Source: Acidobacteriota bacterium
Lineage (GTDB): Bacteria > Acidobacteriota > G020349885
Length of the DNA stretch: 64,000 bases
Direction: 5' to 3'
Assembly: GCA_020349885.1 (NCBI GenBank)
Contig: CP070701.1
Coordinates: 1,666,846 to 1,730,845, forward strand
In this document: positions 13,424 to 54,554 of the stretch, in pieces
Layout of the letters: every line of letters begins with the position of its first letter
Numbering within the stretch: position 1 is the first letter of the stretch
Made by a program: the position numbers and the translations under genes
The notes under the pieces: model-generated
The model's input: the letters and a program-made list of their open reading frames with translations, nothing else
Database searches by the model: none
Told to the model about the DNA's origin: nothing

Positions 13424-13451
13424 GGGGTTAGGGGATAGGGGACAGGGGGTA
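13424..13451 (+). repeat. Heptamer repeat with G-quadruplex potential
   Basis: Four phased 7-nt units: GGGGTTA, GGGGATA, GGGGACA, GGGGGTA. Four runs of four or five Gs with 3-nt loops are a textbook intramolecular G-quadruplex motif. It lies 26 bp past the ETF:quinone oxidoreductase stop and before the WG-repeat gene promoter. Confidence 0.7.
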
Positions 13452-15349: not shown

Positions 15350-15387
15350 TCTTCCTCGTAGTGGTTTGGGCGGCGGCACAGCCGCCG

Positions 15388-15457
15388 ATGATTAATGACT
15401 GATGTTTAATGACTGATTTTTCATTAATCATTTTACATTTTTCATTAATCATTTCTT
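15388..15457 (+). repeat. Array of ten phased 7-nt units in two opposed arms
   Basis: Units in order: ATGATTA, ATGACTG, ATGTTTA, ATGACTG, ATTTTTC, ATTAATC, ATTTTAC, ATTTTTC, ATTAATC, ATTTCTT. Every unit begins with AT. The first four read ATGANTG-like and the rest ATTNNTC-like, so ATTAATGA and TCATTAAT can pair as a hairpin. The array runs into the last codons and stop (TAA at 15447-15445) of the leftward ankyrin lipoprotein. Confidence 0.7.
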
Positions 15458-16245
15458 AGGTCCTCCGCTCCGCCTTCGAGCAGAAGATTTTCTATCTCCG
15501 TATGGCCTTGCCTGGAGGCAAAAAACAAAGCGGTTCGATTCTGGTGTTTTGCGTTCACGTCCGCGCCCGCGTCGATCAGGGCCTCCACAATCTCGGTGCG
15601 GCCCCCCGTTGCCGCCCACATCAGGGTGGTCCTGCCGTGTCCGTCCCTCGCGTTCACGTCCGCGCCCGCGTTGATGAGGATCTTCGCCGTCCCGGTGCGG
15701 CCGTTCCGCGCCGCAACCGTCAGTGCGGTCCCGAGGTCCTCGGCCGCCGCGTCCACGTCCGCGCCAGCGTCAATCAGGGCCTTCACCGTCCCGGTGCGGC
15801 CCCCTCCCGTAGCGGAAATCAGCGCGGTCATACCGTCTTCGGCCGCCGCGTTCACGTCCGCGCCCGCGTCAATCAGGAACTTCGCCGTCTCGGTGCGGCC
15901 CCCCGCCGCCGCCCACATCAAGGCGGTCCCGCCGTATCCGTCCTTCGCGTCCGCGTCCGCGCCCGCGTCAATCAGGACCTTTGCCATATCGGTGTGGCCC
16001 CCTCTTGCGGCGGACATAAGCGCGGTCAGGCCGTCTTTGTTCTTCGTGTTCGGGCTCATGTCCGCACCCAGAAACAACTCGACTGCAACCAGGTCGTTTT
16101 CCTTCACCCGTTCCAGAAAACCGGCCTCGCTGTAGGAGATATTCATCCGCGCCAGCTCCTTGCGGGCGTCCTCCGGGCCCCCGCCGCAGGCGGTTGTTAA
16201 TAGCAGGATGCCCATCCAAAAAAGCAGTTTGTTCGGCTGGTTCAT
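15445..16245 (-). CDS. Ankyrin-repeat lipoprotein
   Basis: 266 residues. The start at 16245 gives a lipoprotein signal (MNQPNKLLFWMGILLLTTAC, lipobox LTTAC, Cys at 20) behind the ribosome-binding site AAGGAAG; the frame is open further upstream but that part is not hydrophobic. Six ankyrin repeats follow from about residue 45, such as GLTALMSAARGGHTDMAK and LIDAGADVNAAAEDGMTALI. Ankyrin repeats bind proteins; no catalytic domain is present. It resembles the ankyrin protein at 33956-35356 in sequence and repeat style, so the two are probably paralogues. Repeat-rich spacers lie on both sides. Confidence 0.88.
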   Translation of the reverse strand: MNQPNKLLFWMGILLLTTACGGGPEDARKELARMNISYSEAGFLERVKENDLVAVELFLGADMSPNTKNKDGLTALMSAARGGHTDMAKVLIDAGADADAKDGYGGTALMWAAAGGRTETAKFLIDAGADVNAAAEDGMTALISATGGGRTGTVKALIDAGADVDAAAEDLGTALTVAARNGRTGTAKILINAGADVNARDGHGRTTLMWAATGGRTEIVEALIDAGADVNAKHQNRTALFFASRQGHTEIENLLLEGGAEDLRND

Positions 16246-16387
16246 CGCGGCTTCCTTTTTCACCGGCGGTATTCGGGCGCGCCGGGGCCGGGGGAAAAAC
16301 ACATTCGTCTCAGCGCGAGAGTCTACCACCGGCCCCGGGGGGGAAGGCAAGCTTCCAGCCCGCAACGCCAAGCGCTTGTCGCGGCGT

Positions 16388-16422
16388 GTAGCCAGGGGCA
16401 AGTAGCCTGTAGCCAGCTATTC
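16388..16422 (+). repeat. Heptamer repeat, GTAGCCA family
   Basis: Five phased 7-nt units: GTAGCCA, GGGGCAA, GTAGCCT, GTAGCCA, GCTATTC. Three of five are near-identical; the outer ones are degenerate. Confidence 0.5.
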
Positions 16423-16465
16423 AGTTTTTCGGTTACTCCGTTACCCCGAACAGAGAAACAGGGAA

Positions 16466-16492
16466 ATCGGCAAATCCGGCAAAAGCGGCAAA
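16466..16492 (+). repeat. Nonamer repeat, NNCGGCAAA
   Basis: Three phased 9-nt units: ATCGGCAAA, TCCGGCAAA, AGCGGCAAA. The last seven positions are almost invariant. Confidence 0.5.
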
Positions 16493-16530
16493 ATGCTTGA
16501 CAAATCGCCGGAGCGGCATACATGGAGAAG

Positions 16531-16565
16531 TATGGAGTGTCGCGTATGGAGTATAGCGTATGAAG
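16531..16565 (+). repeat. Heptamer repeat, TATGGAG family
   Basis: Five phased 7-nt units: TATGGAG, TGTCGCG, TATGGAG, TATAGCG, TATGAAG. A further CATGGAG lies at 16521, out of phase by three bases. Confidence 0.55.
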
Positions 16566-16572
16566 GCACCGC

Positions 16573-16675
16573 CCCCGACGCGTTGGGGCAAGCCGTTAGC
16601 AGTTGGCAGTTAGCAGTTAGCGACTGGAAAATTTTAAATTCCGCTCGCCAACGGCCAAAGGCTAACGGCCAACGG
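16573..16675 (+). repeat. GGGGCAAG palindrome fused to inverted arms of heptamer repeats
   Basis: 16573-16592 is the palindrome CCCCGACGCGTTGGGGCAAG. It runs directly into arm 1 (16593-16627): CCGTTAG, CAGTTGG, CAGTTAG, CAGTTAG, CGACTGG. After an AT-rich 20-bp centre comes arm 2 (16648-16675): CCAACGG, CCAAAGG, CTAACGG, CCAACGG. On the other strand these read CCGTTGG, CCGTTAG, CCTTTGG, CCGTTGG. Both arms share the consensus CMGTTRG in opposite orientation, so the whole can fold as one imperfect hairpin. Confidence 0.7.
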
Positions 16676-16875
16676 CCCTTTGTCATCGGTTATCCGGTTC
16701 CGAGCCGCAGGCGAAGGACCGTGGAGAGAAACCCCAGGGAGGGGGCACCCCCCTCCCCCCTCAATTTACAGAACGAACCTACCAAGTGCGCGAAAACAAA
16801 GGATTTTTTAATTTACACCTAGGAACGAACCTACGAATCGAAGGACGTAGAACGATAGAACGTATGGGATTTTCG

Positions 16876-16903
16876 GTCATTGGTCATCTGTCATCTGGCA
16901 TTT
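16876..16903 (+). repeat. Heptamer repeat, GTCATCT family
   Basis: Four phased 7-nt units: GTCATTG, GTCATCT, GTCATCT, GGCATTT, ending 15 bp before the nuoA promoter. Confidence 0.5.
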
Positions 16904-16915
16904 CGTCGCGGGGTG

Positions 16916-16924
16916 TGCTACAAT
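16916..16924 (+). promoter_or_regulatory. Extended -10 element of nuoA
   Basis: TGCTACAAT (TGn plus TACAAT at 16919-16924). The nuoA ATG is at 16942, 17 bases past the hexamer. No good -35 is visible. Confidence 0.45.
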
Positions 16925-16941
16925 GCGCCGAGGTCAAGCCC

Positions 16942-17298
16942 ATGCTGAAACATTACCTTCCCGTGGCCATCGTGGCGGTCATCGCGACCGGAGCGGCGGC
17001 GGGGATGTTAATCCTCTCGTGGTTCCTCGGCCCGAAGCGCATGACGGCGGAGAAGGCCTTTCCCTACGAGAGCGGCATGCCCCTTCTCGACGAGCAGCGC
17101 AAGCGCCACTCCGTCCGCTTCTATCTCGTGGCGGCGCTCTTCATCCTCTTCGACATCGAGGTCGCGTTTCTCTTTCCGTGGTCGCTCGTGTTCCGGGACC
17201 TCGGCGTGGGCGGGTTCGTGGAGATGCTCGTCTTCATCGGGCTGCTCCTGGCGGGCTTCGTCTACGTATGGAGGCGGGGGGCCCTGGAGTGGCAGTAG
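16942..17298 (+). CDS. nuoA: NADH-quinone oxidoreductase subunit A
   Basis: 118 residues, the usual length, with three transmembrane helices. The diagnostic block is present: PYESGMPLLDEQRKRHSVRF, then FILFDIEVAFLFPW with the conserved acidic residues. NuoA is a small membrane subunit at the junction between the peripheral and membrane arms of complex I. The ATG at 16942 fits the family N-terminus. nuoB follows after 33 bp. The usual nuoC-N genes do not follow nuoB, so the complex I genes are split in this genome. Confidence 0.95.
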   Translation: MLKHYLPVAIVAVIATGAAAGMLILSWFLGPKRMTAEKAFPYESGMPLLDEQRKRHSVRFYLVAALFILFDIEVAFLFPWSLVFRDLGVGGFVEMLVFIGLLLAGFVYVWRRGALEWQ

Positions 17299-33847: not shown

Positions 33848-33930
33848 CGGACGTCGGGTGTCGGATGACTGCCATCTGCTAGCGGCTTATCCGCCATCCG
33901 GATCTACCCTCCCGACATGGTCGGGGCAAG
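33848..33930 (+). repeat. Degenerate heptamer array plus GGGGCAAG palindrome
   Basis: Heptamers from 33848: CGGACGT, CGGGTGT, CGGATGA, CTGCCAT, CTGCTAG, CGGCTTA, TCCGCCA, TCCGGAT; six in a row begin with C(G/T)G. Seven bases later comes the palindrome CCCGACATGGTCGGGGCAAG (33911-33930), ending 11 bp before the ankyrin gene's ribosome-binding site. In the remainder of the 33636-33955 spacer I see only the pepA promoter and a weak GATAAT at 33797. Confidence 0.55.
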
Positions 33931-54393: not shown

Positions 54394-54454
54394 TGCCGTT
54401 TCACCGTACTAATCGGAGCGCAAAATAGTTTTGAGGCTGCCGCATTCGACGAAC

Positions 54455-54554
54455 GTGCAGAAAGTGCGGGAGGTGCAGAAGGTGCGGGAAGTGCGTGACG
54501 TGCTGTCGGCACCTTCCGAACCTTCCGTACCCCTGGCCTGTCTGCCAGGACAAG
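54455..54554 (+). repeat. Array of nine phased 9-nt units plus palindrome ending CAAG
   Basis: Units from 54455: GTGCAGAAA, GTGCGGGAG, GTGCAGAAG, GTGCGGGAA, GTGCGTGAC, GTGCTGTCG, GCACCTTCC, GAACCTTCC, GTACCCCTG. Units 7-8 are the reverse complement of the GGAAGGTGC junction in units 1-4, so the array is two opposed arms. The hairpin CCTGGC..GCCAGG (54532-54549) followed by ACAAG ends it. This is the same plan as at 16573-16675, with nonamers instead of heptamers. Confidence 0.65.

Follow-up and report, generated by a model that had tools for sequence, protein, structure and literature searches.

Dispersed heptameric repeats between genes are familiar from heterocystous cyanobacteria, where they are called short tandemly repeated repetitive (STRR) sequences. 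Reports of a heptamer excess in the intergenic DNA of bacteria go back years, and the sole explanation so far is a guess about polymerase slippage. For heptanucleotide long simple-sequence repeats (LSSRs), Mrazek's proposal, as later papers cite it, is that 7 nt matches the length of DNA held by the polymerase (PMC4692102, PMC4679880). The TAACTGA repeats of Beggiatoaceae lie mostly just upstream of start codons (PMC4679880). In Xanthomonas, the G-rich heptamer GGGAATC, one unit in one genus that is read as a G-quadruplex former, occurs as 70-75 inverted pairs per genome near stop codons (Rehm et al. 2015; PMC4692102). Repetitive extragenic palindromes (REPs) of the GTAG type supply TAG stop codons (PMC3733652). 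Here we analyze a 64,000-nt stretch, called the window, of an Acidobacteriota bacterium (contig CP070701.1, positions 1,666,846 to 1,730,845, forward strand). In the spacer between an ankyrin-repeat gene on the minus strand (end near 16246-16263) and the divergent plus-strand gene nuoA, two heptamer arrays face each other as opposed arms. These arms are probably one copy of a widespread, mobile hairpin insertion element, similar to REP doublets forming hairpins (REPINs) and gained at junctions mostly behind stop codons. Its layout is [7-mer]n, a short core with stem and loop, and [reverse-complement 7-mer]n.

The preliminary description had picked out the opposed arms, and we recover them as GTTRGCA units with a period of 7 (about 16591-16622 and 16647-16677). 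Together with a core, GCGACTGGAAA..TTCCGCTCGC, in which GCGA/TCGC and GGAA/TTCC are able to pair, they make up a module (B, 16592-16677) found at about 10 places in the genome. The AAAGG variant unit of the right arm is common to loci L010, L022, L027, L029 and L038, and module B therefore was copied as a block. Considered alone, the inverted relation of the window arms is modestly above chance: 28 of 38 positions match, and the best inverted score in the spacer is 13, compared to a mean of 8.4 and a maximum of 14 in shuffles. It is compelling only in combination with many other loci.

We surveyed pairing in about 18 data sets, made up of the genome itself, 15 same-phylum genomes and 73 NuoB contigs. 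An inverted partner lies within 150 nt of 59 of the 145 intergenic period-7 arrays, compared to 3.7 in a control in which flanks were exchanged between loci; direct partners number 11. Of 37 period-8 arrays, 12 have inverted partners. In total the survey yields 53 hairpins whose arms repeat a 7-nt or 8-nt unit, and contigs with Bacteroidetes (L096), Chthoniobacterales (L100) and Ignavibacteriae (L105, L117) in their titles are among those that carry them. Forty of the 53 lie between same-strand genes; their median distance is 9 nt from the stop codon and 37.5 nt from the following start (Wilcoxon p=3e-5), and 34 of these 40 are nearer the stop. The 5' arm contains more G than C in 42 of 52 hairpins, a count in which copies of one family are not independent. 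The sampled spacers are also unevenly distributed, with G050 and G028 supplying most of the hairpins, and the statistics treat copies as independent. Within heptamer units, TGA/TCA is modestly over-represented (24 versus 13.8, z=3.4, 32 words tested), and an 'AGT' core common to units across phyla is not enriched. We make no claim about mirrored unit variants, which fold-back copying predicts: the test is biased by its match-maximizing register, and the arms in G069 are not mirror copies.

The pairing rests on a broader excess of period 7, which the preliminary description had set as a test of its idea that different units with one period share a mechanism. We scanned the 651-nt window spacer by Tandem Repeats Finder (TRF) and lag-autocorrelation, with 1000 dinucleotide shuffles as a control. 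It holds three period-7 segments (0.001 expected), one period-9 segment (p=0.019) and three period-14 segments (0 in shuffles), two of which are the same heptamer arms. The genome, a single 2.4 Mb contig, was represented by the window and 26 spaced samples of 20 kb each. A simple home-made finder based on codon usage supplied approximate gene calls (88.6% coding), and the period spectrum counts lag-k segments in spacers against shuffles at a relaxed threshold. Unbiased spacer amounting to 52-54 kb contains 10 period-7 arrays, and its shuffles contain none. Periods 14 and 21 are harmonics of 7, periods 9 and 18 come second and other periods are near zero, while the coding DNA of the sample shows mainly multiples of three. 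Eighty NuoB contigs from many phyla contain 18 period-7 arrays (about 0.5 in shuffles), and the same-phylum samples contain 17 (0 in shuffles), with the excess in some genomes. The expected excess over shuffles is borne out, as are the agreement in period of units that differ in sequence and a common theme behind the opposed arms.

Comparison of orthologous junctions shows that such hairpins are gained by insertion between genes, mostly directly behind a stop codon. Slot 1, behind the same gene as the G028 pair at L264, was compared in 12 related genomes of the same family. It holds heptamer hairpins of different units in G028 (AGTCCTG), G069 (GTTGCTG), G072 (AGCTGTT), G064 (GGGGNGT) and G070 (GGCTCTT), an octamer hairpin in G068 (GGCGCATR) and a non-heptamer palindrome, CACAGACA, in G060. 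The remaining five genomes (G061, G041, G062, G073, G066) have only 30-100 nt there and no hairpin. At slot 2 (L255), the two matched genes are 0-14 nt apart in most relatives, with an ATGA-type overlap in several; the second gene resembles radC by its motif. In G028, a 120-nt GATCGCA hairpin (L255, 13810) stands at this junction, and both the stop of the first gene and the start of the second are kept. Set against L361-L374, it parts genes that in relatives overlap or lie almost end to end, and its flanks possibly form an imperfect 9-nt duplication. An insertion that parts overlapping genes so exactly is also relevant to the evolution of operon junctions.

Every lineage has amplified a unit sequence, or several, of its own, and the number of units per arm varies from copy to copy. 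One example is an element with GTTGCTG arms: G069 contains about 40 copies, and a search of 12 further genomes, 11 from the same family plus G000, the genome of the window, found no copy. Its copies share a 37-nt core, which in most begins with CT[TC]G and ends with CAAG, and have arms of 0-11 units as called, with left and right numbers loosely correlated (r=0.42). The outer ends often read TAGTTGC, and the first unit includes the gene's own TAG at 12 of the 24 edges that face a stop. No tag is constant across the hairpin families.

How such an element would spread can be sketched from these patterns. Some cut-and-join or copying activity would move the hairpins, and polymerase slippage favoring 7-nt steps would lengthen and shorten their arms. 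The sites that survive would be the 3' ends of genes, where a transcribed hairpin may be harmless; or else the hairpin, as a 3'-end structure, may buffer mRNA decay or read-through. The placement argues for either a 3'-end role or tolerance there, with mRNA stabilization or neutrality as the candidates that remain.

Several observations weigh against an insertion element. The window copy sits in a divergent spacer, 245-328 nt from the neighboring genes, and does not show the stop-codon rule; in this position it need not act on nuoA. Among GTDB contigs, the best NuoB match is only 64% identical and comes from other phyla, with no usable sister genome. Because the genomes compared include no close relative, the window copy itself offers no contrast between insertion and empty site. 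Target-site duplications were not found (mean shared flank word 3.47, versus 3.40 in permutations), although flank words of at least 6 nt number 5 versus 1.6, and slot 2 of G028 is one possible imperfect 9-nt case. No mover was found: Y1_Tnp is absent from this genome, and the Y1_Tnp genes of relatives are flanked by other palindromic terminal inverted repeats (TIRs), not heptamer arrays. Mismatches in the arms show no G.U bias (17 G.U versus 32 A.C, the opposite trend), and no T-run follows the hairpins (2.8 T in the 10 nt past the 3' arm versus 2.5 further on). In G028, arms of the same unit enclose unrelated loops (8-62 nt), an unusual feature in copies of a single transposon; either the loops were replaced after insertion or arms were added around existing sequence, and this is the least understood point. 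Finally, all gene calls come from a simple finder.

A bolder form of the insertion account is a tentative possibility that we consider rather less probable: that heptamer-armed hairpins form a mobile class that crosses phyla and spreads through a dedicated activity, which would copy in 7-nt steps, write lineage-specific words as inverted arms and seat them at stop codons, with the result that non-homologous elements of one architecture take each other's place at a given slot.

Plain simple-sequence repeats, generated by replication slippage over the 7 nt held by the polymerase and tolerated as neutral between genes, are an unlikely explanation and, for the paired arrays, slippage alone is already disfavored. 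Heptanucleotide excess is known genome-wide in many bacteria, period 8 ranks second among paired arrays, and the variable, loosely correlated arm lengths in G069 are what slippage would give. It yields direct arrays, though, and not inverted partners for 59 of 145, nor would it produce a conserved core between arms, a whole 120-nt hairpin in a junction of 0-14 nt or some 40 dispersed copies.

We consider it quite unlikely that the hairpins are selected RNA structures, bidirectional terminators or mRNA stabilizers that arose independently at the same slots using heptamers as expandable stem material. Their position just behind stop codons, the occurrence of non-homologous hairpins at one slot in different genera and the consistently G-rich 5' side (42 of 52) would fit such selection. 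With neither a T-tract nor a G.U bias, however, an RNA role, and a terminator in particular, is unsupported: the hairpins lack the T-run that comes after the G/C-rich stem of an intrinsic terminator, and a surplus of G.U over A.C mismatches as a sign of RNA-level selection was rejected. At slot 1, moreover, 5 of 12 genomes have no hairpin at all, and families of one lineage-specific sequence look like spread rather than repeated invention. One loop, at L048, holds a terminator-like AAGGAA..TTCCTTTTT.

It is improbable that the arms are REP or REPIN elements moved by REP-associated tyrosine transposases (RAYTs) of the Y1 (HUH) type. Across 13 genomes, array density correlates with the number of Y1_Tnp genes (Spearman 0.74, p=0.004), but the correlation may be indirect because array-rich genomes are repeat-rich in general. 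The supply of TAG stops to neighboring open reading frames (ORFs) by GTAG REPs (PMC3733652) and the lack of target duplication, as with HUH elements, also favor this view. Yet neither this genome nor its relatives have a RAYT flanked by the heptamer repeat, the heptamer arms are not palindromes themselves, and the relatives' Y1 genes have perfect TIRs of their own, many with TAGCC; we therefore rejected Y1_Tnp as the mover. In L321-L340, from same-phylum genomes, most Y1_Tnp genes lie between perfect or near-perfect inverted repeats of 30-48 nt that are TIRYT-like, many containing TAGCC.

A degraded gene is highly improbable: a spurious 81-aa ORF does run through the region, but pieces of the spacer are found, variously combined, at about 34 places between genes, a period of 7 is not a multiple of three, and orthologous slots elsewhere are empty or hold unrelated hairpins. 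The comparison with relatives proposed in the preliminary description reveals gain and replacement within the phylum and no degraded genes.

The insertion element that we prefer can be set beside the known systems. Like the Xanthomonas GGGAATC repeats (PMC4692102), the surveyed hairpins are convergent heptamer pairs near stop codons and G-rich on the coding side, and the window copy is not near a stop. Unlike them, the units here vary with lineage and locus and mostly have no G-runs; the hairpins occur in several phyla, and orthologous slots show both insertion and replacement. The arrays share with heptanucleotide LSSRs, TAACTGA repeats and STRRs a period of 7 and a dispersed intergenic location: tandem 7-nt units exceed chance between genes, and their number varies between copies (0-11 per arm in G069). 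Those repeats are described as direct arrays, and an inverted-arm architecture has not been described for them as general.

With REPs, REPINs, bacterial interspersed mosaic elements (BIMEs) and GTAG REPs (PMC3733652), the hairpins have in common that they are dispersed, multi-copy, lineage-specific and intergenic, often at gene 3' ends, with termini that give TAG stops. REPs, in contrast, are palindromes of 20-40 bp with a conserved tetranucleotide tag (GTAG, CGTC) and a RAYT, whereas here stems are heptamer arrays of variable length, arms have no internal palindrome and no RAYT link is seen. Miniature inverted-repeat transposable elements (MITEs) are likewise short, non-coding and dispersed with inverted ends, but neither a target-site duplication nor a parent transposase was found here, and same-armed G028 copies differ in their loops.

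To call this an undescribed class, as the preliminary description did, is too strong, given that heptamer repeats beyond cyanobacteria, and inverted pairs near stops in Xanthomonas, have been published (PMC4692102). As far as the literature we searched shows, what is new is the generality of the inverted-arm hairpin, which spans phyla and units of different sequence, together with the gain and replacement recorded at orthologous slots. A large share of heptamer arrays are the two arms of hairpins at gene ends, present, absent or replaced at particular slots. A statistical oddity becomes an element that can be defined by its boundaries and core, its empty sites and its preferred target. What moves the hairpins, why the step is 7 nt and how they affect mRNA 3' ends become testable.

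The window spacer as a whole, upstream of nuoA, is an accumulation of several repeat modules that were dispersed independently of one another (Table 1). BLAST of the spacer against its own genome gave 61 matches at about 34 places, which dissolves the single element of the preliminary description into modules; Rfam has no match in 16200-17000 at E<=1. Module A (16464-16565 plus 16737-16840) opens with a nonamer array and continues with TTGACA-N16-TANNNN, variable heptamers, a stretch rich in G/C and finally a unit of about 51 nt. Its other copies lack module B, so B is nested inside A in the window.

Table 1. Repeat features in the spacer upstream of nuoA (window positions).
Feature	Position	Strand	Basis or remark
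GTAGCC words, three, weak, no true array	16388..16414	+	at 16388, 16402 and 16409
Nonamer array NNCGGCAAA, 3 units	16464..16493	+	TRF, lag-autocorrelation; ends 4 nt before TTGACA
Sigma70-like core promoter	16497..16524	+	TTGACA 16497-16502, 16-nt spacer, TACATG 16519-16524
Phased repeat GTATGGAG/GTATAGC, part of module A	16530..16565	+	period 14; also in other module A copies
Short palindrome CCCCGACGCGTTGGGG followed by CAAG	16573..16592	+	read from sequence; dispersed hairpin type, many copies
Left arm (GTTRGCA)n of hairpin element B	16592..16622	+	TRF; found at about 10 places genome-wide
Core of element B, GCGACTGGAAAATTTTAAATTCCGCTCGC	16620..16648	+	conserved in L010, L018, L022, L029 and others
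Right arm (GCCAACG)n, inverted partner of left arm	16647..16677	+	TRF, partner search
G/C-rich stretch GGAGGGGGCACCCCCCTCCCCCCT, where the right half of module A begins	16737..16762	+	BLAST matches (query 358-458 and similar)
Unit of ~51 nt, AACGAACCTACCAAGTGCGCGAAAACAAAGGATTTTT..., one full and one partial copy	16772..16840	+	12 close matches genome-wide
Heptamer array GGTCATY	16875..16901	+	TRF, lag-autocorrelation; no inverted partner called at window

Four of the five arrays first reported in the spacer were found by both methods. The fifth, GTAGCCA at 16388, is irregular, with gaps of 14 and 7 between its GTAGCC words, and TRF does not report it. Similar words occur in L023 and L029, and GTAGCC(AGGGGC) at 16388 resembles the inverted repeat flanking the Y1_Tnp gene at L334. 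The repeat reported as TATGGAG at 16531 is real but fits a period of 14 better than 7, and GTCATCT at 16876 reappears as GGTCATY with a period of 7, a unit that makes up the arms of hairpins at L048 and L018 in the same genome.

The array reported at 16466 is confirmed as a nonamer with a period of 9, and it is separate from the heptamer class in which it had been placed: a variable-number array at a sigma70-like, putative promoter, forming the left end of module A. About two dozen arrays like it occur genome-wide, with 0-14 units, most in fixed register upstream of TTGAC. The pattern CTTGACAAATCGCNGGNNNGGCA is matched at 22 genome places with at most 3 mismatches, compared to 0 for a reversed-pattern control. 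Set against the sigma70 consensus of TTGACA, a 16-18 nt spacer and TATAAT, 23 copies keep TTGACA and the spacing, with TATAAT or TATATT as the -10 element in two and TACATG in about half; the sister copies at L042 and L030 have TATAAT or TATATT where the window has TACATG. By its motifs, the nonamer-promoter repeat looks like a tunable or dispersing promoter cassette.

The 23 places with both array and promoter include window 16464-16524, L019, L027, L030, L037 and L042. At L042, TTGAAA-N16-TATAAT precedes a GGAG that resembles a Shine-Dalgarno sequence, and then ATG. In L027 and L030 the nonamer-promoter repeat has directly downstream of it paralogous genes of the '..NARRSTGPRSERGKA..NAIRHGVL' type, which may be its original cargo. 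The unit of about 51 nt, AACGAASCCNCTAAGTGCGCATGAATAAAGGATTTTTTAA..CCTAGG, follows module A in the window (16772-16840), L016, L024, L028 and L036, and is tandem elsewhere, with up to about 4 units in L016 and L028.

Of the further arrays first reported in the window, those at 13424, 15388 and 54455 exist, the last with periods of 9/18/27, and none was found at 33848 at a TRF score of 30. Phased repeats extend over 15387-15453 (period 14/7) and 54451-54503 (period 9/18) in window spacers. Numerous short palindromes that end in CAAG (for example CCCAGACTAAGAGTCTGGGCAAG) occur inside nonamer arrays and beside heptamer arms, in the window at 16573-16592 and at L009, L011, L013, L022 and L027, and the hairpin core of G069 likewise ends in CAAG in most copies.
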